Assembly: GCA_021202575.1 (NCBI GenBank)
Contig: JAJQCU010000023.1
Coordinates: 1-11,313, forward strand
DNA: 11,313 nucleotides
Source: Lachnospiraceae bacterium
GTDB taxonomy: Bacteria; Bacillota; Clostridia; Lachnospirales; Lachnospiraceae
Direction of reading: 5' to 3'
The position numbers and the translations under genes are program-made. The first letter of the stretch is position 1, and every line of letters starts with the position of its first letter. Positions 3 to 10,669 of the stretch are shown piece after piece. The notes below the pieces were generated by a model. It worked only from the letters and a program-made list of their open reading frames with translations. It searched no databases and was not told the DNA's origin.

Positions 3-1499
3 CGCCGCGAGCTTTTTGAGCGGCTGGAGATATCAAAAAATAAGGATCTCTGCGCACAGTGGATGAACCAGTGGCCGGTATTGTTTGTGACGTTGAAGGA
101 TGTGAACGGGCGTGATTTCCCCGATGCGTATGAAATGCTGCATCAGGTGCTGGCTGATCTGTGCAAAGAGCACTATTATCTGAAAACGAGTGACAGAGTC
201 AATGCGGAAGACAGGGATGCGTTTGCCAGACTGTGTGCACGTAAGGGTGAGCTCGCTGATGTTAAAAACGCTTTGACAATCCTGCTTCGTATGATGTGCG
301 CACATTATGGGAAGGAGGTTATCCTGCTCGTAGATGAATACGATGTTCCGCTGGCAAAAGCCAGTGATAACGGCTATTATGACGAGATGCTGAATGTCAT
401 CCGGACGCTTCTGGGGATGTCCTGGAAGTCCAATCCGAATCTCAAATTTGCAGTGGTGACGGGGTGCCTGAGAGTTGCGAAGGAAAGTATATTTACCGGA
501 GCGAATAATTTTGTCTCCAGCTCCATTTCGGATGTCAGATACCAGGATTGTTTTGGATTTACAGAAGCGGAAGTGATACAGATCCTTGCGGATGCGGATC
601 TGTCAGAGGCGCTGCCTGAAATGAGACGGTGGTATAACGGCTATCGTTTTGGCAAAATGGAGATTTATTGTCCCTGGGATGTGCTGCTTCATGTGCTGGC
701 TCTTAGCCAGGACGAACATGCCAGACCGGGAAATCACTGGCTGGATACAAGCCACAACAGCATCATCAGGCGTTTCATTGACCTGCCGGATATGTTTGTA
801 AACGATAAATTTGAGACCCTGCTCTCCGGTGGTGTTATTCAGGAACGGATCCGTGAGGATCTGACTTATGATATTGCTCATTCCTCAGAAGATAATTTAT
901 GGAGTATTCTCTATCTGACCGGCTATCTGACGCAGGTTCTTCCGGAAGAGCTGCCGGAGGGAATGACGCCTCAGGAGGGAAAAACCTCCCTGCGCATTCC
1001 GAATGAAGAAGTGAAATCTGTTTTCAAAGATACCGTGCAGGCCTGGTTTGAGGACTCGCTCAAGTCCAGAGACCGCAGTGAATTGTTTAGCGAATGGTGG
1101 AACGGGGATGATGTGAAGCTGACCGGGAATGTCTCGGATATTCTTTTTGATACCATCAGCTACTACGACTACAAAGAAGACTTTTACCACGCGTTTGTCG
1201 CCGGAATGTTCTCCGGCGCGGGTTATGAGGTAAAATCAAACTCTGAACAGGGGAAGGGAAGAGCTGACATTGTAGTCAAGGAACGCCGTCGCAGACGAGC
1301 CATTGTCATTGAAGTGAAATGGCCGGGGAAAAAGAAAAACGCTACCCTTGAAAGCGAATGTCAGGAAGCGCTCGATCAGATTGAGAGGATGCAATATTCG
1401 AGGAATCTGCGTATGGAGGGCTTCAGGACAGTGCTTTGTTATGGAGCGGCATTTCTCGGAAAAGACTGCCTGATCAGGCGGGCCGTGGAAAAAGAGTAA
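3..1499 (+). CDS. AAA-ATPase-like / PD-(D/E)XK nuclease-superfamily protein, 5' truncated by window edge
   Basis: The frame is open from base 3, so the true start lies upstream. The first in-frame ATG (63) is internal, because about 20 residues before it (ending LCAQW) continue naturally into WPVLFVTLKDV. The N-terminal P-loop expected in this family lies outside the window. A Walker B-like strand VILLVDEYDVPL sits near residues 86-97 counted from Met63. The C-terminus carries a PD-(D/E)XK core: GRADIVV near residue 400 and IEVKW near 417-421, with a basic RRRRR stretch between them. This matches the Pfam families AAA-ATPase_like (PF09820) plus PDDEXK_9 (PF08011) as I know them. Members are often multicopy in gut anaerobes and their cellular role is not established. 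The gene stands alone: a strong terminator follows and the next gene is 300 bases away. I am confident of the family, not of any function. Confidence 0.88.
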   Translation, partial: RRELFERLEISKNKDLCAQWMNQWPVLFVTLKDVNGRDFPDAYEMLHQVLADLCKEHYYLKTSDRVNAEDRDAFARLCARKGELADVKNALTILLRMMCAHYGKEVILLVDEYDVPLAKASDNGYYDEMLNVIRTLLGMSWKSNPNLKFAVVTGCLRVAKESIFTGANNFVSSSISDVRYQDCFGFTEAEVIQILADADLSEALPEMRRWYNGYRFGKMEIYCPWDVLLHVLALSQDEHARPGNHWLDTSHNSIIRRFIDLPDMFVNDKFETLLSGGVIQERIREDLTYDIAHSSEDNLWSILYLTGYLTQVLPEELPEGMTPQEGKTSLRIPNEEVKSVFKDTVQAWFEDSLKSRDRSELFSEWWNGDDVKLTGNVSDILFDTISYYDYKEDFYHAFVAGMFSGAGYEVKSNSEQGKGRADIVVKERRRRRAIVIEVKWPGKKKNATLESECQEALDQIERMQYSRNLRMEGFRTVLCYGAAFLGKDCLIRRAVEKE

Positions 1500-1545
1500 G
1501 GAACAAACATCAGCAAAGTCAAAATTTCATAATTTTCCGGGTCAG

Positions 1546-1580
1546 GAACCGCTTCTGCTGTCGCAGGGGCGGTTCTTTTT
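1546..1580 (+). terminator. Rho-independent terminator after the AAA/PDDEXK gene
   Basis: The seven-base arms GAACCGC (1546-1552) and GCGGTTC (1569-1575) are perfectly complementary. Inside them CTGC (1555-1558) pairs with GCAG (1563-1566) around a TGTC loop. Five T residues follow at 1576-1580. It begins 47 bases after the TAA of the upstream gene, the expected position for an intrinsic terminator. Confidence 0.88.
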
Positions 1581-1800
1581 CATCAGTTTATTTTGAGTTG
1601 AAACTAAAGGGGTATCATGGTTGGGATTTGAGGAGGGCATATTGCCGGGAATAGGAAGAGCGTGTTTTGGGAAATCTATGGAAGGATGCCCCGGGCCGCG
1701 CAGGATGGCTGTTCCGAAAAATAAAGCCGCATGATGGCGGAACTATTCAGAAGCTGTTAAGAAAAAGATTAATTTTTTAACAGTCTCCTCAGGGAAGCGG
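1581..1800. other. Non-coding leader between the first gene and the acyltransferase/GT8 operon
   Basis: With the terminator, this is a 300-base stretch without a convincing gene. It probably holds the promoter of the downstream operon, but I could not identify a pair of -35/-10 boxes I would defend. A strong Shine-Dalgarno-like GAGGAGGG at 1630-1637 precedes a TTG at 1642 that opens only a 30-codon frame (1642-1734), which I do not call a gene. An AT-rich hairpin lies at 1754-1783. Confidence 0.5.
1754..1783 (+). promoter_or_regulatory. AT-rich inverted repeat upstream of the operon's first gene
   Basis: CTGTTAA at 1754-1760 mirrors TTAACAG at 1777-1783. Pairing continues inward through a G-T wobble and three A-T pairs, giving an 11-pair stem with an 8-base loop. 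It ends 8 bases before the Shine-Dalgarno AGGGA (1791-1795) of the acyltransferase start at 1801. It lacks a following T-run, so it is not an ordinary terminator. It could be an operator or a leader RNA structure, and the function is unknown. Confidence 0.35.
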
Positions 1801-2577
1801 ATGAAAATGAGGGAAGAGGTTCGGTATTACCGCGAATATACAGACGATTTTGTGGAGAGCAGGCGGCAGGAGGAGAAGCTTCCTGAGGATTTTGTGTGGC
1901 TCCATGAGAATATCTTTTACCGGGCCGCAGCGGCTTTCCTGTATGGAATTGCGGTGATATTCAGCTTTTTTTATTCGCGCTTTTGTCTTCATATCCGGGT
2001 GGTGGGCAGGGAGAAGTTCAAAACCTGCAGAGGACAGGGGATTTTCCTGTACGGCAATCACACCCAGCCTGTGGGGGACGCCTTCGCCCCGGCCATGTAT
2101 ATTTTCCCGAAAAGGCTGTACACGGTGGCGGACGCGGCCAATCTGGGCATCCCGGTGCTGGGAAAGCTGCTTCCCATGCTCGGCGCGCTGACGGTGCCCC
2201 AGTCCCTGTCCCGGATGAAGCTTTTTCTGAACGCGATGAAATATCATCTGGAGCATGGCAGATGCATTATTGTTTATCCGGAGGCGCATGTGTGGCCTTA
2301 CTGTAATTTTATCCGGCCCTTCCCGGAGACCTCCTTCCGGTATCCGGTGCAGTTCGGGGCGCCCGCTTACTGCATGACCACGACCTATCAGAAGAGGCAA
2401 AGAGGGCAAAGGCCGGGCATCACCACATACATTGACGGCCCCTTTTATCCAGATCAGGGGGTGGGCAAAAAGGAGGCGCAGAGGAAGCTGCATGATGAAA
2501 TTTATCAGTGCATACTGGAACGGAGTAAGGAAAGCAACTGCGAATATATCCGGTATGTCAGAAAAACGGGGGAATAA
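1801..2577 (+). CDS. PlsC-like lysophospholipid/1-acylglycerol-3-phosphate acyltransferase family protein
   Basis: A 258-residue protein. One hydrophobic segment (about residues 42-60, rich in A, F, I and V) should anchor it at the cytoplasmic membrane. The catalytic block follows: GNHTQPVGDAF with H87 and D93, then an acceptor-side block VYPEAHVW (158-165) and a FIRPF...GAPAY region (170-190), the order expected of the PlsC/LPLAT fold. The usual motif is H-x4-D; here the aspartate is one residue further away (H-x5-D). The ATG at 1801 has AGGGA five bases upstream; a second ATG at 1807 has poorer support. It opens a run of co-directional genes encoding two GT8 enzymes and another acyltransferase, so a role in acylating a glycolipid or lipid anchor is inferred. 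The acyl donor and acceptor cannot be read from sequence. Confidence 0.85.
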   Translation: MKMREEVRYYREYTDDFVESRRQEEKLPEDFVWLHENIFYRAAAAFLYGIAVIFSFFYSRFCLHIRVVGREKFKTCRGQGIFLYGNHTQPVGDAFAPAMYIFPKRLYTVADAANLGIPVLGKLLPMLGALTVPQSLSRMKLFLNAMKYHLEHGRCIIVYPEAHVWPYCNFIRPFPETSFRYPVQFGAPAYCMTTTYQKRQRGQRPGITTYIDGPFYPDQGVGKKEAQRKLHDEIYQCILERSKESNCEYIRYVRKTGE

Positions 2578-2604
2578 GACCGAGAAGCTCAAAGGACGGC
2601 ATTC

Positions 2605-2682
2605 AAAGGAGCGATAAATGAGAGCGAAAGCCCGCAGAGTGACGTGCCGGAAACTATGAAAAAAGGGAGAGAAAGCAAGTGA
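2605..2682 (+). other. Gap with two chained mini-ORFs leading into the GT8 start
   Basis: A good Shine-Dalgarno AAAGGAG (2605-2611) sits 6 bases before an ATG at 2618 that encodes only 13 codons (basic, MRAKARRVTCRKL). Its TGA (2657-2659) overlaps a second ATG (2656) encoding 8 codons, whose TGA (2680-2682) overlaps the GTG start (2679) of the GT8 gene. The overlaps would allow translational coupling into the GT8 gene. Whether either peptide is made is unknown, and chance is quite possible. Confidence 0.25.
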
Positions 2683-3509
2683 TCAACATCTTATACTGCG
2701 GGGATCAGAATATTGAGGACGGCCTGATCATCTCTGTTTTATCTCTGCTGAAAAATGTGGAGGAGGAGCTGAATATTATCGTCCTGACGCTCGCCCTTTC
2801 GGCGGAGGAGACCGGCACAAAAGAGCTCTGTCCGGTGTCTGAGAGGGTGATCCGGTATCTTGACGGGCGGGTGAAAGAGCAGAATCCTCAGAATCAGGTC
2901 AGGCTCATCGACGCCACTAAGCTGTTTCAAAAGCAGATGCCCGCGGCCAATATGGCGACCCGCTTTACGCCCTGCTGCATGCTTAGGCTGTACGCCGATC
3001 AGATTCCGGAGATACCTGACCGGATTTTGTACCTGGACAACGATGTGGTCTGCCGGAGAAGTCCGGGAGGTTTTTACCATCAGGAAATGGAAGCTTATGA
3101 GGTGGCGGGGGCCTTGGATTATTACGGAAAATGGTTTTTCAGAAGCAGTCCTTTTCACATGGATTACCTGAATTCCGGCGTCCTTTTGCTGAATATGAAA
3201 AAAATCAGGCAGACGTCCCTTTTTGAGCGCTGCCGCACCCTTTGCCGAGATAAAAAAATGTTCATGCCGGATCAGTCCGCCATCAATAAACTGGCAGGAG
3301 CCAAAAAAATCTGCCACAGAAAATACAACGATCAGAGACGGCTTCATGAGGACACAGTGATGCAGCATTTTTCCACCACATTCCGTTTCTTCCCATGGAT
3401 TCATACGCTGACGGTGAAGCCCTGGGAGGTGGAGCGGGTGCACAGCGTGCGGAAGCTGACGGAATATGACGATCTTCAGGAGGAGTACATACGAGGAGAG
3501 TATTTATGA
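2679..3509 (+). CDS. Glycosyltransferase family 8 protein (first of two)
   Basis: A 276-residue GT8 enzyme, expected to transfer a hexose from a UDP-sugar with retention of configuration, probably at the inner face of the membrane. Visible family landmarks are the N-terminal nucleotide-binding strand INILYCGDQN; RLYADQIPEI..RILYLDNDVV with the metal-binding D-x-D at D120-N-D122; LNSGVLLLNM (N165-S-G167); PDQ (197-199); and the C-terminal H230 and KPW (247-249) that close on the sugar nucleotide. The start is GTG at 2679 with GGGAGA at 2665-2670; the upstream ATG (2656) is in another frame and stops after 8 codons. The last four bases overlap the next gene as ATGA, indicating coupled translation. 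The sugar and acceptor are unknown. Confidence 0.9.
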   Translation: MINILYCGDQNIEDGLIISVLSLLKNVEEELNIIVLTLALSAEETGTKELCPVSERVIRYLDGRVKEQNPQNQVRLIDATKLFQKQMPAANMATRFTPCCMLRLYADQIPEIPDRILYLDNDVVCRRSPGGFYHQEMEAYEVAGALDYYGKWFFRSSPFHMDYLNSGVLLLNMKKIRQTSLFERCRTLCRDKKMFMPDQSAINKLAGAKKICHRKYNDQRRLHEDTVMQHFSTTFRFFPWIHTLTVKPWEVERVHSVRKLTEYDDLQEEYIRGEYL

Positions 3510-4462
3510 AGGAAATACCTGTTTTTTTCACGGTTGATGATGATTACGCGCCTTATCTGGACTGCGCCCTGCGCTCCATGATGGAGAACGCGTCCGGAGA
3601 GTATGATTATAAAATTATTGTGCTGGAGCAGGATCTTGGCGAGGAGCACAAGGCCTGGCTTGCGGCTGCCGCAAAGCCGCCCTTTGAAATTCAGTTTATC
3701 CGGATGAAGGACAGCTACAGCTGGCTGACGGACCGGAAGGAGAACTGGCTTCGCTGTGATTATTTTACGCTGACCATTTATTTTCGCCTTTTTATCGCGG
3801 ATATGTTTCCCCAGTATGATAAGGGAATTTATCTGGACAGCGATATCGTGGTGCCGGGAGATAATTCAACGCCGGCTGCCGCGGCGCGCGGGGACAGGCG
3901 TTCGGGGGTGTGTACGGATCAGGCGGTGCTGGCGGTGCCTGAGCTGTCCCATTACGCTGAGCAGTCCATCGGCGTGAAAAGCAAGGACTACTTTAATTCC
4001 GGCATTATGGTCATGAATTTAAAGGCTCTGCGGGAGGAAAAATTTGCCGACCGGTTTATGCGGCTGCTGAACACCTGGCATTTTGACTGCATCGCGCCGG
4101 ATCAGGACTATCTCAACGCCATCTGTCAGGGACGGGTTGTGCTGCTGGACGGAGAGTGGGATGTGATGCCGCCGGCCGGGGAGGGCGGGGCGCTTGTGAA
4201 GGAGCCGAAGCTTATTCATTACAATTTATTTTCCAAGCCCTGGTGCTATGACGGCATCGCCTATGAGGAATATTTCTGGAAATACGCTGAGAAATCGCCG
4301 TTTTATCAGGATATTCTGCGCCATAAGGAAAGCTATTCCGAGGAGCAGAAGCGATCGGACGCGGACTGCATGGCGACCATGATCCGGAAGGCAGCGACTA
4401 ACGATGAGCGGGAGGTGACATTCCGCAAGCTCAGGGACAGAGGAGAGAAGATCCGGTTATGA
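3506..4462 (+). CDS. Glycosyltransferase family 8 protein (second), C-terminus probably truncated by a repeat expansion
   Basis: A 318-residue GT8 paralogue. Landmarks: FFTVDDDYAPYL at the N-terminus, FRLFIADMFPQYDKGIYLDSDIVV with D-x-D at D111-S-D113, FNSGIMVMNL (163-172), PDQDYLN (198-204) and HYNLFSKPW (238-246), so the catalytic core is complete. The start at 3506 has GAGGAG at 3492-3497 and overlaps the upstream stop as ATGA. Two things are odd. Residues 119-134 (DNSTPAAAARGDRRSG) after the D-x-D are unusually Ala/Arg-rich where this class normally has a hydrophobic loop. The last residues KLRDRGEKIRL belong to the first unit of a tandem repeat that supplies the stop at 4460. The same frame reopens beyond the repeats and ends at 4804 against the next gene, so the original protein was probably some 40 residues longer. 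The core looks functional, but activity is not assured. Confidence 0.87.
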   Translation: MKEIPVFFTVDDDYAPYLDCALRSMMENASGEYDYKIIVLEQDLGEEHKAWLAAAAKPPFEIQFIRMKDSYSWLTDRKENWLRCDYFTLTIYFRLFIADMFPQYDKGIYLDSDIVVPGDNSTPAAAARGDRRSGVCTDQAVLAVPELSHYAEQSIGVKSKDYFNSGIMVMNLKALREEKFADRFMRLLNTWHFDCIAPDQDYLNAICQGRVVLLDGEWDVMPPAGEGGALVKEPKLIHYNLFSKPWCYDGIAYEEYFWKYAEKSPFYQDILRHKESYSEEQKRSDADCMATMIRKAATNDEREVTFRKLRDRGEKIRL

Positions 4463-4687
4463 GTCCCGGTGAAACGCGGAGCCGGAGAAAAGATCCGGTC
4501 AGGAACTTCGGCGAAACGCGGAGCCGGAGAAAAGATCCTGTGAGGAGCCATGCTGAAGCTCAGAGACAGAGCGGAGAAAATTCGGTTATGACCCCCGGCG
4601 AAATGCGGAGCCGGAGAAAAGATCCGGTCAGGAGCATCGCTGAAGCTCAGGAACCGGAAGAGAAAATCCGATTATGGTTTTTGGCGG
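4427..4687 (+). repeat. Six-unit tandem coding minisatellite (45-42-42-45-42-45 bp) at the 3' end of the second GT8 gene
   Basis: Units: A 4427-4471, B 4472-4513, C 4514-4555, D 4556-4600, E 4601-4642, F 4643-4687. There are two types. A, D and F begin AAGCTCAG. B, C and E begin AAA(C/T)GCGGAGCCGGAG and carry CCGGA-7 bases-TCCGG hairpins (perfect in B and E). Every unit is a whole number of codons in the frame of the GT8 gene: A/D read KLRDR(G/A)EKIRL-stop, B/C/E read K(R/C)GAGEKI. Stops lie in units A (4460), C (4541) and D (4589). Unit F is one base shorter internally, regains a base at its end, and reads through as KLRNRKRKSDYGFWR. The array therefore appears to have grown by duplication inside the coding region. 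The opposite strand gives equally repetitive but meaningless frames. Confidence 0.85.
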
Positions 4688-4804
4688 AAGTACGGGGCGG
4701 ATAAAGCCTCGGACCTGATGATCGGCAGAGCCGTATATACGAAAGAGAAAGAATTTGATTATCAGAAAGGCCGGAAAAATACGAGAGAAGGGATTCAGAT
4801 ATGA
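4643..4804 (+). pseudogene. Relic C-terminal coding tail of the second GT8 gene
   Basis: In the same frame as the GT8 gene starting at 3506, this stretch is open from 4592. From 4643 it reads KLRNRKRKSDYGFWRKYG and continues through ADKASDLMIGRAVYTKEKE to a TGA at 4802-4804. That stop overlaps the ATG (4801) of the next gene as ATGA, the same arrangement as the junction between the two GT8 genes. Removing units A-E would join FR at 4421-4426 directly to KLRNRKRK and give one GT8 protein of about 360 residues. The segment is now separated from its gene by three in-frame stops. Calling it a relic is an inference from frame and spacing. It accounts, with the repeat, for the 338 bases between annotated genes. 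Confidence 0.55.
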
Positions 4805-5664
4805 TCATCGGCGGAAATAGAGCGGAAGTAGTACAAAACATCAGAAAAAACGCGGAAAACGGGGATTACAACCTGAAAACCGAGGTGGATGACCCCAGTA
4901 TCACAGCCGAACAGAAGACGGAGCTGGCGCTTCGCTACGCCAACAGTCAGGGAACGGTGGGCTACTGGCTGAAAAACCGGCTGGCCATGGCCTTTCTGTA
5001 TGTGTTTGACTTTCTTCTTAATCGGAACACACGGGTGGAAGGACTGGAGAACCTGGACGATATCCGGGGCGGCGCCATCGTCACCAGCAATCATTTCAAT
5101 CAGCTGGACAACACAGTGGTGCGGGAGACCATGCGCCGGGGCGGCCAGAGGCGGATGTACACAGTGGTGCAGGAGACCAATCTGGCGATGACGGGCTTTA
5201 TGGGCTTTATCATGAATTATGTGGACAATATTCCCATCACAAAGAGCAAAAAATACACCAGCGAGTATTTTGAACCTGAGATCGCCCGTCTGCTGGCGCG
5301 GGGGGACAAGATCCTTATTTATCCGGAGCAGGAGATGTGGTTTAATTACCGCAAGCCCAGGCCGCCGAAGCGGGGCGCTTATTATTACGCGGCGGTAAAT
5401 AATGTACCTGTGATTTCCTGCTTTGTGGAGATCCAGGATTTGCCCCAACAGGAGACGGAGGAATTTTATCAGACCCGGTGGGTGATGCACGTGCTGCCGA
5501 CCATTTATCCGGATCCGCAGAAGGATGTGAGGACCAACAGCCTGGAGATGATGGATAAGGATTATCGGCAAAAGACAGCGGCCTATGAGGCGGCCTACGG
5601 GAAGAAACTGACCTACGCCAATGAGCAGGGGGACGTGGCGGGATGGATTGCGAAGGAGGCGTGA
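4801..5664 (+). CDS. PlsC-like acyltransferase family protein (second)
   Basis: A 287-residue acyltransferase. About 60 N-terminal residues without clear family features precede a hydrophobic stretch (LAMAFLYVFDFLL, 61-73). Then come VTSNHFNQLD with the canonical H-x4-D pair (H98, D103), the YTVVQETN and ITKSKK blocks, and IYPEQEMW (173-180), followed by KRGAYYYAAVNNVPVISC (190-207). The order fits the PlsC/LPLAT fold acting on an acyl-CoA or acyl-ACP at the membrane. The ATG at 4801 is supported by AAGGGA (4788-4793) seven bases upstream and by overlap with the TGA that would end the ancestral GT8 frame. It is not a recent duplicate of the acyltransferase at 1801: only motif-level similarity is evident. 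With the two GT8 genes it suggests a glycolipid-forming set (inference); the substrate is unknown. Confidence 0.85.
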   Translation: MIIGGNRAEVVQNIRKNAENGDYNLKTEVDDPSITAEQKTELALRYANSQGTVGYWLKNRLAMAFLYVFDFLLNRNTRVEGLENLDDIRGGAIVTSNHFNQLDNTVVRETMRRGGQRRMYTVVQETNLAMTGFMGFIMNYVDNIPITKSKKYTSEYFEPEIARLLARGDKILIYPEQEMWFNYRKPRPPKRGAYYYAAVNNVPVISCFVEIQDLPQQETEEFYQTRWVMHVLPTIYPDPQKDVRTNSLEMMDKDYRQKTAAYEAAYGKKLTYANEQGDVAGWIAKEA

Positions 5665-5676
5665 AACCCGGTACAG

Positions 5677-7515
5677 ATGAAAAATAAGGATACAGAAAAG
5701 AGGGTGGAATTGATCAGGCGGGGGGAAGAGATGGCTCCTGTCATGAAAACAGCCGGAAAAGAAGGAAAAGCAACGGAACTGAGACTGGGCATCGATATCG
5801 GCTCCACCACGGTGAAGCTGGTGATCATCGATGCCCATACATATGAGGTGATTTATTCAGTCTACCGGAGGCACCATGCCAGGCAGATGGAGACAGCGGC
5901 GGCGCTTTTAGAGGAGGCGGCGGAGAAGTTCCCCGGGGTGGTTCTCAGGGCCGCGGTGTGCGGCTCCGGCGGGAAACCGGCGGCGGAGGCTTTGGGGGTT
6001 CCCTACATTCAGGAGGTGGTGGCAAACGCCGCCGCGGTCTGCGCCCTGTACCCACAGGCCAGAACCGCCGTGGAGCTTGGCGGTCAGGACGCCAAGCTGA
6101 TTTTTTTTCATTATGATGAGGAAAAAAAGGAGCTGACGGCGTCGGATATTATGCGCATGAATGGAAGCTGCGCCGGGGGAACCGGGGCCTTCATTGATGA
6201 GATTGCCGCGCTTCTGGATGTGGAGCCGGAAAATTATGAGGCGCTGGCGGCGGCCGGAAGCCATGTCTATGATATTTCCGGGCGCTGCGGGGTGTTCGCC
6301 AAGACGGATATCCAGCCGCTGCTGATTCAGGGGGCGGCCAGGAAGGATATCGCGCTGTCTGCCTTTCACGCCATCGCGAAACAGACCATCGGCGGTCTCT
6401 CCCAGGGACTGGAGCTGGCGCCGCCGATCATTTTTGAGGGCGGGCCGCTGACCTTTCATCCCACCCTGGTGAGGGTATTCGCGGAGAGGCTGCACCTGAA
6501 GGAGGAGGAAATTCTGATTCCGGAGCATGCGGAGACCATTGTGGCCCGGGGAGCGGCCATCGCCATTGACCGGCTGTTTCCGGAGACAGCGGACGGAAAC
6601 GATGGCAATGAGGGCAGAATGTCCCTCTCCGGGATGGCTGATAAGCTTTCCACCTTTCTAAGAACGCAGGAAGCGCAGCTGGCGGCTTCTGGCCGTCCCT
6701 TTTTTGAAAATGAGAAGGAGAGAGAGAACTTTGAGGCGCGCCACGGCGCGGAACGCCTGCCTGTGGAGGAGCCCGAAGTCCGTGATGGGGAAATCCGCGC
6801 CTGGCTGGGCATTGATTCCGGCTCCACAACCTCCAAAATGGTGCTGATGGATGAAAAAGAGCGGGTCATAGACCGTTTTTACGCTTCCAACCGGGGACAG
6901 GCACTTGGGGTGGTCTGCGACGGCATCCGCGGCTTCTATGAGAAATATGAGAAGCAGGGCGTCCGGCTGCGCATTCTGGGAGCGGGCACCACCGGCTACG
7001 GCGAAAAAATGCTGGCGAAGGCCTTCGGGGCGGATTATCATATCGTGGAGACAGTGGCCCACGCTGCGGCGGCGGTCAGATTTTTCCCGGACGCGACCTT
7101 CCTGCTGGATATTGGAGGGCAGGATATGAAGGCCATCTGGCTGGAGGATGGTGTGATCACCAATATCATGTTAAATGAGGCCTGTTCCTCCGGCTGCGGC
7201 TCCTTTCTGGAGACCTTCGCGGAGAGCCTGAATATTCCGGTGGAGGAGATCGCCGACGAGGCCTTCGCCTCGGAAAACCCGGCCCGTCTTGGCAGCCGCT
7301 GCACCGTGTTCATGAACAGCACCATTATCAATGAGCAGAGAAACGGCAAAAGTCCCAGGGACATTATGGCCGGCCTTTGCCGTTCCATCATTGAGAATGT
7401 GTTCACGAAGGTGGTGCGCGTCTCCAACACGGACACGCTGGGGGATTGTGTGGTCGTGCAGGGCGGTCCCTTCAACACAGCGGCAGTGCTTCGGGCGCTG
7501 GAGGAATATCTGTGA
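5677..7515 (+). CDS. Acyl-CoA dehydratase activase, double ATPase (HgdC/BcrA-BadF type); N-terminal part of a split giant protein
   Basis: Two ASKHA ATPase domains in one 612-residue chain. Domain 1 has GIDIGSTT (38-45), GGQDAK (135-140), NGSCAGGTG with C165, RCGVFAKTD with C204 and EGGP (254-257). Domain 2 has GIDSGSTT (378-385), GGQDMK (480-485), NEACSSGCGSF with C503, RCTVFMN with C542 and QGGPFN (595-600). In HgdC-type activators one cysteine of each such pair per subunit ligates a [4Fe-4S] cluster bridging a dimer, and ATP hydrolysis drives an electron into a 2-hydroxyacyl-CoA dehydratase. Here both pairs are 39 residues apart, so the chain could form an internal pseudo-dimer. The protein stops at a TGA just before the GALGAA motif that should finish domain 2, and the same frame continues to 10173. 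The 5677 start has AAGGAGG 17 bases away, which is far; ATG 5731 after GGGGGAAGAG is a credible alternative. Confidence 0.88.
   Translation: MKNKDTEKRVELIRRGEEMAPVMKTAGKEGKATELRLGIDIGSTTVKLVIIDAHTYEVIYSVYRRHHARQMETAAALLEEAAEKFPGVVLRAAVCGSGGKPAAEALGVPYIQEVVANAAAVCALYPQARTAVELGGQDAKLIFFHYDEEKKELTASDIMRMNGSCAGGTGAFIDEIAALLDVEPENYEALAAAGSHVYDISGRCGVFAKTDIQPLLIQGAARKDIALSAFHAIAKQTIGGLSQGLELAPPIIFEGGPLTFHPTLVRVFAERLHLKEEEILIPEHAETIVARGAAIAIDRLFPETADGNDGNEGRMSLSGMADKLSTFLRTQEAQLAASGRPFFENEKERENFEARHGAERLPVEEPEVRDGEIRAWLGIDSGSTTSKMVLMDEKERVIDRFYASNRGQALGVVCDGIRGFYEKYEKQGVRLRILGAGTTGYGEKMLAKAFGADYHIVETVAHAAAAVRFFPDATFLLDIGGQDMKAIWLEDGVITNIMLNEACSSGCGSFLETFAESLNIPVEEIADEAFASENPARLGSRCTVFMNSTIINEQRNGKSPRDIMAGLCRSIIENVFTKVVRVSNTDTLGDCVVVQGGPFNTAAVLRALEEYL
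7513..7515 (+). other. In-frame TGA interrupting the activase giant gene
   Basis: The reading frames of 5677-7515 and 7549-10173 are identical. Between this TGA and the ATG at 7549 there is no other stop: the codons read RELHLAPYSGE and then MGALGAAML, which is the missing end of the second ATPase domain. Without the TGA the frame is 1498 codons. The position expected here in the LG-x-x-(2-9 residues)-MGA(L/F)GAA context of these activases is glycine, and GGA becomes TGA by one G-to-T change. I see no bacterial SECIS-like hairpin directly downstream. Confidence 0.85.
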
Positions 7516-7548
7516 CGGGAGCTGCATCTGGCGCCTTATTCCGGAGAA

Positions 7549-10173
7549 ATGGGAGCCCTGGGGGCAGCGATGCTGACCCGAAATCATATCAAAGAATACG
7601 GGTATGCGGATCGGAAGGATACTTCTTTTATCGGCAGAGAAGGCCTCAACAGCTTTCATTATGAAACAAGGACCGGCGTGATCTGTCCCCGCTGCGCCAA
7701 CCATTGCAGCCGCACGGTGATTTCCTTTTCCGACGGGAAAGAGGATGCTGACGGAAAATATTATGTTACGGGGAATCGATGTCAGCGCGGGGAAATGCTG
7801 ACCAGACGGGAGTGGGTGCAGGAAACGGGTATGGCGCAGACAGAATCCTCTGATGGGAAGGGAAAAGCCGCGCAGGTGCAGCCCGTGGATCTGTTCGCTG
7901 AACGCGAAGCCCTGCTCTTTCAGGAGTATCCTTATCACGCTTCTGCCGTGCGAAAGGAGGTCATCGGCCTGCCCAGGGTGCTGGAATTCTGGGACAGCTG
8001 CCCCTTCTGGAGCACGTTTTTCAGAGCGCTGGGATATCAGGTAAAATTATCCCGCAAAAGCAGCCGTAGGATGTACGAGGAGGGCCTTTCCTTTGTGGCC
8101 TCCGACACCATCTGTTTTCCGGCCAAGCTGGTGCATGGCCACGTGGTGGATCTGGCAAAACAGGGCGTGGACAGGATTTTCTTCCCTTATATTATGCACA
8201 TGCCGCCGGAGGGCGTGGACAAGCAAAGCCCCTATGTCTGTGCTGTTCTGCAGGGCTATCCCATGATGGTGCAAAATTCCCAGAATCCGGAAGAGCGTTA
8301 TGGCGTGATTTACGACGCGCCGGTGTTTCACTGGTTTTCCGAAAAGGACAGAAAAAAACAGATTTGCCAGTACGCGGCGGATACGCTGGGAGTGACTGCA
8401 AAGGAAGCGGAGGAGGCCTTCTCGCAGGGAGAGGAGGCCATGAAGCTGTTTCGCGCGACCCTGACGGAGAAGGCTTCACGGGTGATTGACCAGGCGCGAA
8501 AGAATCACAGCTATGCCGTAGTGCTGGCCGGCCGACCCTACCACACGGATCCCTTTGTGTCTCATGATATCTCGAAGCTATTTCTCAAAAAGGGCATTTC
8601 CGTGCTGCCGGTGGACTCTCTGCCGGGGCTGGACGAGCAGGATCTGAAGAATACCCGCATTGAGATCACCAACAATTTTCACACCCGGATGCTCGCCGGA
8701 GCCATGATCGCCGCGGAGAATGAGGCGCTGGAATATGTGCAGTTAGTCAGCTTCGGCTGCGGCCACGACGCCGTGCTCTCCGATGAGATCGTCCGGATTA
8801 TGACTGAGAGGGCGGACAAGCCGCCGCTGATTTTGAAGGTGGATGAGAGCGACGCTTCAGGCTCTCTTGGCATCCGCACGGAATCCTTTATTGAGACGGT
8901 GGACATCCGGCGGAAAGGCAGAAGCGGCACAGCGCAGGCATGCTCGCTGCCCGCGCCCAGTCCCGTTAAATTTTATAAGAAGGATAAAAAAATACGAACG
9001 TTGCTCATCCCCAACATTTCCGCGGAGGTCTCCGTCCTTTTGTGCGGGATTCTGGAAAAGGAAAATTTCATTGTCCAGTCGGTCCCGGTGGGCGGCCTTG
9101 AGGAGATCGGCCTCGGCAAAAAATATGTACATAACGATATCTGCTTCCCCTGCCAGATGGTTATCGGGGAACTGATCGGCGCTCTTCAAAAAGGGAATTA
9201 CGATCTGGACGAAGTGGCGGTGGGTATGGTAAAATTCCAGTGTGACTGCCGCATGTCCCATTACGCGGGCCTTCTGCGCAAGGGCCTGGACGCCGCCGGT
9301 TTTTCACAGGTGCCGGTGCTGACCACGGACATGGGGGACTCCAAGGACATGCATCCCGGCGTTGCCCTGCTGGGCGTCGGCGCGGTGCTGGAGGCGGTCT
9401 GGAGCTTTGAGATGCTGGACATGCTGACAGAGCTGTGCAGGAAAATCCGCCCCTACGAGTTCCACCCTGGGGAGACGGACCGGGTATATCAGGGCTGTGT
9501 CCATCAGATCGCGGATGGAATCCGGGAGGGCATCGGCGCGGCCAGAAGGGCTTTTGAGAAATGTCTGGATGAAATGGCGGCCATTCCTTATGACAGAAGC
9601 CATTTAAAGCCCCGTGTTTTTGTCACCGGCGAGCTCCTGGTCACCTATCACCCGGGGTCCAACTTCGATATTGAGCGCTATCTGGAGAGGAATGGAATGG
9701 AGACCGTATTTCCAAGGATCACGGACCAGCTTCGCAAGGATTTCCGGGCCACAGAGTGTGAAATATCAGAATATCATGCCAATATTTTCCCCTACCCCTT
9801 CGCTGTGACCTGGCTTTTCGATGAGATCCAGAAACGGCTGGAGAAGGCGGCGGTCAGGCATCCTCTGTACCGAAAGGCCATGCGCCCCAGGGACATGTAT
9901 CAGGAGGTTGAGGATATCATTCCCGAGACCTTAAGCTGCGGCGAGGGCTGGCTGATGGCGGCGGAAATCGCCCATTACGCCGGGGAGGGCGTGAAGCGCT
10001 TCGTGATTTTACAGCCCTTCGGCTGTCTGCCCAACCACATCTGCGGCAGGGGCGTGATCAAGAAGCTAAAGGAGCGATTTCCGGATATTCAGATTTTGCC
10101 TCTGGATCTGGATCCGGATACCAGCTATGCCAATGTGGAAAACAGGCTGCAGATGCTTTTGATGAACCATTAA
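7549..10173 (+). CDS. Acyl-CoA dehydratase activase-related protein, DUF2229 and CoA-dehydratase-like C-terminal part of the split giant protein
   Basis: An 874-residue protein that is the direct in-frame continuation of the double activase. It starts with MGALGAAML, the tail of ATPase domain 2. A cysteine cluster follows: C46-x2-C49-x3-C53 and C78. Then comes the DUF2229 (PF09989) region with VIGLPRVLEFWDSCPFW (C151), DTICFPAK (C189) and LAGRPYHTDP. The second half has NDICFPCQ (C532, C535), QCDCR (C565, C567), SCGEGW (C797) and QPFGCLPNHICG (C826, C832), conserved cysteine motifs that suggest Fe-S cofactors as in 2-hydroxyacyl-CoA dehydratases. In fused relatives (about 1400-1500 residues) one chain carries all of this; the physiological substrate is generally unknown. 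ATG 7549 has only GGAG two bases upstream, so independent initiation would be weak. The real unit is probably 5677-10173, now split; whether this half is expressed is uncertain. Confidence 0.85.
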   Translation: MGALGAAMLTRNHIKEYGYADRKDTSFIGREGLNSFHYETRTGVICPRCANHCSRTVISFSDGKEDADGKYYVTGNRCQRGEMLTRREWVQETGMAQTESSDGKGKAAQVQPVDLFAEREALLFQEYPYHASAVRKEVIGLPRVLEFWDSCPFWSTFFRALGYQVKLSRKSSRRMYEEGLSFVASDTICFPAKLVHGHVVDLAKQGVDRIFFPYIMHMPPEGVDKQSPYVCAVLQGYPMMVQNSQNPEERYGVIYDAPVFHWFSEKDRKKQICQYAADTLGVTAKEAEEAFSQGEEAMKLFRATLTEKASRVIDQARKNHSYAVVLAGRPYHTDPFVSHDISKLFLKKGISVLPVDSLPGLDEQDLKNTRIEITNNFHTRMLAGAMIAAENEALEYVQLVSFGCGHDAVLSDEIVRIMTERADKPPLILKVDESDASGSLGIRTESFIETVDIRRKGRSGTAQACSLPAPSPVKFYKKDKKIRTLLIPNISAEVSVLLCGILEKENFIVQSVPVGGLEEIGLGKKYVHNDICFPCQMVIGELIGALQKGNYDLDEVAVGMVKFQCDCRMSHYAGLLRKGLDAAGFSQVPVLTTDMGDSKDMHPGVALLGVGAVLEAVWSFEMLDMLTELCRKIRPYEFHPGETDRVYQGCVHQIADGIREGIGAARRAFEKCLDEMAAIPYDRSHLKPRVFVTGELLVTYHPGSNFDIERYLERNGMETVFPRITDQLRKDFRATECEISEYHANIFPYPFAVTWLFDEIQKRLEKAAVRHPLYRKAMRPRDMYQEVEDIIPETLSCGEGWLMAAEIAHYAGEGVKRFVILQPFGCLPNHICGRGVIKKLKERFPDIQILPLDLDPDTSYANVENRLQMLLMNH

Positions 10174-10177
10174 AATG

Positions 10178-10227
10178 AAAAGGCGGGCGGACCGGTAAAA
10201 TTCCGACCGTTTTTGGAGGAGCCTTTT
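10178..10227 (+). promoter_or_regulatory. Possible leader hairpin around the GtrA ribosome binding site
   Basis: AAAAGGC (10178-10184) is complementary to GCCTTTT (10221-10227). The 36-base loop contains CGGT/ACCG (10193-10196 with 10206-10209), followed by a T5 run (10210-10214), and then the Shine-Dalgarno GGAGGAG (10215-10221). The small inner stem plus T-run could be a weak terminator after the activase gene; the outer stem would partly hide the ribosome site. Stem strength is modest, so this is tentative. Confidence 0.25.
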
Positions 10228-10231
10228 TAAA

Positions 10232-10669
10232 TTGAAAAGAGTTTCTGAGTATATAAAAAGATATATTCCGTTCCTGAAGTTTGTGACGTCTTCCCTGACC
10301 GGCTCGGCGGTGGAGCTGCTGTTGTTTTACGGTCTGTGCCAGGTGCTTCCCCTGCCCCGGGTGCAGATGATCTACCTTGCCACGGTCATTTCCAGAGTGA
10401 TTGCCGGAACCCTGAATTTCCTGATGAATAAGTTCTGGAGCTTCGGGGGAAAGGGCGGCGGTGCAGGGTCAGTCCGGTCCATGGGCCCCCAGGCGGTAAA
10501 ATACGCCATCCTGTTTGTGGGCAAGATGCTGGCCAGCGCCCAGCTGGTGTCGATGATGCCGGCCGCGATTCCTACGGTGTTGTCGAAGGCGGTGGTGGAT
10601 ACAGGCATTTTCTTTATCAGCTATGTGATTCAGAAGAAGTGGGTGTTTGCGGAAAAGAATAAATCGTAA
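10232..10669 (+). CDS. GtrA family membrane protein
   Basis: A 145-residue protein with four hydrophobic segments (about 12-37, 45-68, 88-109 and 113-134) and the paired signatures NFLMNKFWSF after helix 2 and ISYVIQKKWVF after helix 4, the layout of the GtrA/DPMS-associated family (PF04138). Such proteins are thought to help move polyprenyl-linked sugars across the cytoplasmic membrane or to support their polymerisation. The start is TTG at 10232: the Shine-Dalgarno GGAGGAG (10215-10221) is ten bases upstream, and the first ATG is well inside the second helix. It is 58 bases downstream of the activase region and may be cotranscribed with it. A membrane sugar-lipid protein is consistent with the GT8/acyltransferase set upstream, though the large activase intervenes. 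It is followed by a strong hairpin terminator. Confidence 0.88.
   Translation: MKRVSEYIKRYIPFLKFVTSSLTGSAVELLLFYGLCQVLPLPRVQMIYLATVISRVIAGTLNFLMNKFWSFGGKGGGAGSVRSMGPQAVKYAILFVGKMLASAQLVSMMPAAIPTVLSKAVVDTGIFFISYVIQKKWVFAEKNKS

Follow-up and report, generated by a model that had tools for sequence, protein, structure and literature searches.

The gene examined here encodes a large protein of a Lachnospiraceae bacterium and is interrupted by a single in-frame TGA. The question is whether this stop is a genuine recent mutation, a recoded or tolerated codon, the boundary between two functional subunits or an error in the sequence. The window, i.e., the whole stretch of DNA that was analyzed (11,313 nt), is free of N. 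On its forward strand, an ATG at 5677 opens a reading frame of 612 codons (5677-7515) that ends with the TGA at 7513-7515. Past this codon, the same phase stays open for 885 codons, from 7516 to the TAA at 10171-10173; 11 sense codons follow the TGA and then an ATG at 7549, from which 874 amino acids are encoded up to the TAA ending at 10173. The preliminary description had reported two same-phase frames separated only by the TGA and 11 sense codons, with no further stop over nearly 900 codons, and these coordinates and the phase are exact. Its remark that such a long open frame indicates either a recent event or continued use of the downstream half is a fair point but does not decide between explanations. 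It also listed four explanations (nonsense mutation, sequence error, readthrough and functional split) without choosing among them; an error is the best supported of these, and readthrough and a functional split are disfavored. The features of the locus are as follows.

5677..7512, + strand: N-terminal piece, with the first activase (BcrAD_BadFG) domain, a linker and the second activase domain without its last part (Pfam, NCBIfam and 1hux matches).
7513..7515, + strand: in-frame TGA; all 76 other loci that cover residues 590-640 have a sense codon here.
7468..7522, + strand: patch with four changes specific to the window, each a transversion at codon position 1 or 2; the stop and the loss of Asn 601 are among them.
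7516..10170, + strand: continuation of the frame, with the end of the second activase domain, a Cys-rich segment, DUF2229 and a C-terminal region.
7549..10173, + strand: ORF of 874 aa from an ATG, the longest one past the stop; the Shine-Dalgarno-like letters upstream are coding letters shared with the intact locus L039.
3864..3903, + strand: second patch, with eight window-specific changes, six of them transversions, and no stop, in a GT8 glycosyltransferase gene.

The frame represents real coding sequence, given the Pfam matches in each half and an additional NCBIfam match in the N-terminal one. Two stretches of the N-terminal piece match the BadF/BadG/BcrA/BcrD activase family (PF01869, 219.7 bits against a cut-off of 31.5; TIGR00241, 246.5 bits against 125.4). 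In the piece after the stop, DUF2229 (PF09989) is the sole significant Pfam match, with 226.5 bits against a gathering score of 29.4. As judged from these domain matches, the gene product is a fused double activase and DUF2229 protein. The second activase domain is incomplete in the 612-residue product: its match ends at position 244 of the 271 of the PF01869 profile. The match to 1hux ends at residue 231 of 270 with the remainder encoded after the stop, and the TGA therefore removes the end of this domain, in agreement with the earlier proposal that the codons around it encode the missing end of the second ATPase domain. In related genomes, many short single-domain activase matches begin at about residue 374 of the window frame and end at 633-648, and others reach ~705-712. 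In this family, the activase domain binds ATP, carries an iron-sulfur cluster and drives electrons onto an acceptor of low potential. An alignment of 35 proteins revealed invariant Cys columns after the stop, which suggests that this part is a candidate iron-sulfur acceptor of the HgdB/DCCP type, fused to the activases in one chain. Based on what is known of the family, we infer that the intact protein would be an ATP-driven electron pump, its two activase domains holding the iron-sulfur cluster, fused to a probable iron-sulfur acceptor module. The part after the stop yielded no significant match to PDB sequences (best E-value 0.28, antibody chains), and its comparison with itself gave a weak signal of internal duplication (hhalign probability of 80% over 52 columns).

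A match is present in 57 of the 61 genomes searched, the genome of the window included. In other genomes, each full-length match listed is one open frame of ~1,400 to 1,600 codons and, among the matches listed, the window is the only full-length one with an internal stop. Stops were otherwise seen in a 491-codon frame on contig C38 of G013 (two TGA) and in a shorter activase on contig C153 of G002 (one TGA). The preliminary description had suggested aligning the joined frame to fused relatives. At the position of the stop (residue 613), a sense codon was found in 76 of 76 other loci, a set that mixes orthologues and paralogues (three paralogues from the same genome among them) and in which at least four genes were fetched by two routes (L007/L041, L008/L040, L009/L039 and L011/L075, with equal frame lengths). 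These codons encode Gly in 65 loci, Glu in five, Asp in three and Arg, Lys and Asn in one each. The range of residues accepted at this position speaks against a special role of the codon. Twelve codons upstream, residue 601 is Asn in all 76 loci and Thr in the window, such that the window does not carry the Asn of the motif GG-x-F-x-N, a motif defined by alignment only. The 76 loci derive from 84 fetched loci other than the window, 79 of which cover residues 590-640; three second fetches from the same genome were dropped. The five loci left out cover this region partially or not at all; among them is L018, which begins only at residue 599 and likewise carries a sense codon at 613.

A search of sister strains for intact versions had also been suggested, and one was found: the gene is intact in the sister genome G003, a Lachnospiraceae MAG, whose locus L039 is 96% identical to the window after the stop and presents collinear blastn matches from 429 to 10662 of the window. 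A single base separates the TGA from the codon of the close relatives L039, L040 and L075. No intact copy near 100% identity was found among the best 120 of ~8,000 candidates in each search of the protein collections, the nearest fused protein being 89-90% identical; therefore, the absence of the stop from the species is not demonstrable. Among the matches listed in these collections, split halves came only from one contig of 11,313 bases: P0001 has two members from one contig, an origin that rests on one of these two sequences, and P0121 has one member from one contig.

The order acyltransferase, GT8, GT8, acyltransferase, activase/DUF2229 and GtrA (window 1801-10669) is kept in L039, L041, L042 and L043. 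The linker between the activase domains varies in length and is ~49 codons longer in L039 (at about 6613 of the window). The window also carries a degenerate 42-bp tandem array of 4.5 copies (4442-4635) with a GT8 gene on one side and an acyltransferase gene on the other, and the stretch of L039 that matches this region is ~240 bp shorter. Finally, another MAG of the group (L070, 5177-9790) presents a single in-frame stop elsewhere in the same gene, at window residue 787.

Could the two frames encode two separate subunits, the second made by reinitiation at the ATG at 7549? This ATG lies 33 nt past the stop with GGAG just upstream, and a related gene of G057 (C1:2801119-2805260) is indeed organized as two neighboring frames (996 and 428 codons) on the same strand. 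However, the break in G057 lies near residue 1080-1098, ~470 residues beyond the stop of the window and not at residue 613, and the cut in the window falls inside the second ATPase domain, removing its end. The preliminary description had named, as one condition that would refute its reading of a gene split by the TGA, relatives that consistently encode two proteins with a proper ribosome site at 7549. Neither was observed: none of the 76 other loci has a stop at the site, and the letters resembling a Shine-Dalgarno sequence are unchanged internal coding letters of the intact L039, which rules out an acquired ribosome site. We consider a functional split very unlikely. The variant in which the stop is real and fixed in the species, with the pieces cooperating as activase and acceptor subunits that complete the ATPase fold across the break, is more improbable still. 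Even a product joined by readthrough or by association would be doubtful because the Asn kept in the other loci has been lost as well. Programmed readthrough or selenocysteine insertion at the TGA would account for the long and conserved downstream frame, but Cys occupies the site in none of the 76 other loci, the in-frame stops found elsewhere in the assembly include TAA and TAG, and TGA terminates three other ORFs of the window (3507-3509, 4460-4462 and 5662-5664). TGA is thus not generally reassigned, and a change of the genetic code was rejected on the same two grounds. In the genome itself (84% complete), the best match to SelB reached 190.6 bits, under the cut-off of 242.25, and the best match to tRNA-Sec scored 35.1, under the gathering score of 47. 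A selenoprotein was rejected on the lack of Cys in homologues and of these two components above their cut-offs, the genomic part of this argument being weak at 84% completeness, and recoding of any kind appears hardly plausible.

The quality of the draft bears directly on the two remaining explanations. The host assembly (G000) consists of 427 contigs, and N gaps, most of them of 10 N, occur in 20 of the first 44 of its stretches examined; one paralogue of the gene, on contig C9, seems broken and its interruption is such a 10-N gap. We compared interrupted genes in both directions between ~512 kb of G000 and ~1.01 Mb of G003, using the fetched stretches only (64 and 61, respectively). Accepted frames had 80 or more aligned residues, an identity of 80% or higher and differences dominated by third positions; ORFs with X were dropped, and stops in the first 40 or last 20 residues were not counted. 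In G000, 12 of 120 accepted genes are interrupted: four by frameshifts at N gaps, two by other frameshifts and six by in-frame stops, among which TGA, TAA and TAG are all represented. The reciprocal count gave two interrupted genes out of 114 in G003, both by frameshift, and no in-frame stop. An earlier and cruder count (11 of 70 genes flagged in G000 and nine of 74 in G003) is superseded by these numbers; 11 of its 20 flagged sequences were viewed, several of which were judged by eye to be spurious (antisense frames or start extensions).

Random base errors produce about two transversions for each transition. Within 60 nt of the six in-frame stops of G000, and excluding the stop codons themselves, we counted 34 transversions to 17 transitions. 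The remainder of the same genes, whose divergence is transition-biased, has 62 and 235 (Fisher's exact test, p = 2e-10). Without the largest contributor (L125), the counts are 16:13 against 59:223 (p = 1.5e-4). The signal is carried by three of the six genes: the local ratios are 5:4 in the window, 8:4 in L124, 18:4 in L125 (beside an N gap), 1:1 in L116 and L118 and 1:3 in L126. L116 also has a 15-nt deletion near its stop. The pooled ratio is that expected of random base errors, and we read it as local consensus errors in a poor draft. This reading is tempered by the pooling of the pattern and by relaxed constraint, which could account for some of the excess, transversions being by nature more frequent among nonsynonymous changes than among synonymous ones.

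Across six genes of the window, and using only the columns where all outgroups agree, 90 changes are specific to the window and 50 to L039. Transversions represent 28 of the 90 against eight of the 50 (Fisher's exact test, p = 0.07), and codon positions 1 and 2 represent 52 against 20 (p = 0.05). The changes of the window are patchy, with concentrations at 3864-3903 in the GT8 glycosyltransferase gene, at 6662-6691 in the linker and at 7468-7522 around the stop. In the activase gene, the 26 changes at positions 1 and 2 are clustered beyond chance (permutation test, p = 0.002), the densest 200 bp being the linker and not the patch around the stop. The longer branch of the window could also reflect real fast evolution.

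Taken together, we consider it probable that the TGA arose from a base-level error of sequencing or assembly in a draft and probably metagenome-assembled genome. Three observations make this the best-supported explanation: the TGA is part of a cluster of transversions, the assembly has many in-frame stops and the pooled changes near them look random. The close relatives encode the fused double-activase/DUF2229 protein in a single unbroken frame, and the true gene of the window would do the same; we infer that the reads do not carry the stop. A genuine and recent nonsense mutation, private to the strain and leaving a pseudogene with both fragments inactive or degraded, is possible but unlikely. 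It would require a single base change from the codon of the three close relatives, it fits the concurrent loss of Asn 601, and paralogues of the family in the genome could make the loss tolerable. It also agrees with the excess of nonsynonymous changes in the window: the second activase domain has five of them (the stop included) against zero for L039, and a stricter count over the whole activase gene gave seven nonsynonymous and 19 synonymous changes against zero and 18 for L039. However, the excess of changes extends beyond this gene (eight against two in GT8b), and the pooled ratio near stops and the number of other interrupted genes point to noise. If the stop were real, a large ATP-driven redox protein would have been lost, or oddly split, in this lineage. 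If it is an artifact, as we favor, claims of pseudogenes or recoding from this genome cannot be trusted without the reads, a caution that follows from the six in-frame stops in 120 genes against none in 114.

The closest known counterparts are the fused acyl-CoA dehydratase activase/DUF2229 proteins (PF01869 and PF09989), which share the domain order of the window and up to 96% identity after the stop. Such proteins were seen in MAGs named Lachnospiraceae, Oscillospiraceae, Clostridiales, Spirochaetales and others. The close relatives are encoded by one uninterrupted frame, whereas that of the window contains a stop and lacks the Asn kept in all 76 other loci. Among solved structures, sequence matches to the second activase domain are given by the activators of 2-hydroxyglutaryl-CoA dehydratase (1hux) and 2-hydroxyisocaproyl-CoA dehydratase (4eht), as well as by subunits of 3-methylbenzoyl-CoA reductase (9gai) and a putative CoA-substrate-specific enzyme activase (7yyl), the latter presumably tied to a double-cubane cluster protein. 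These solved chains are 243-276 aa long, in contrast to the window, where two such domains are fused to a large module. A further counterpart is the BCR/HAD family of radical enzymes, which includes the double-cubane cluster protein (PMC11971306). In contrast to this family, the part of the window after the stop has DUF2229 as its one significant Pfam match and no significant match to PDB sequences. The parallel with the family would lie in the pairing of an ATP-driven electron activation module with an iron-sulfur acceptor.
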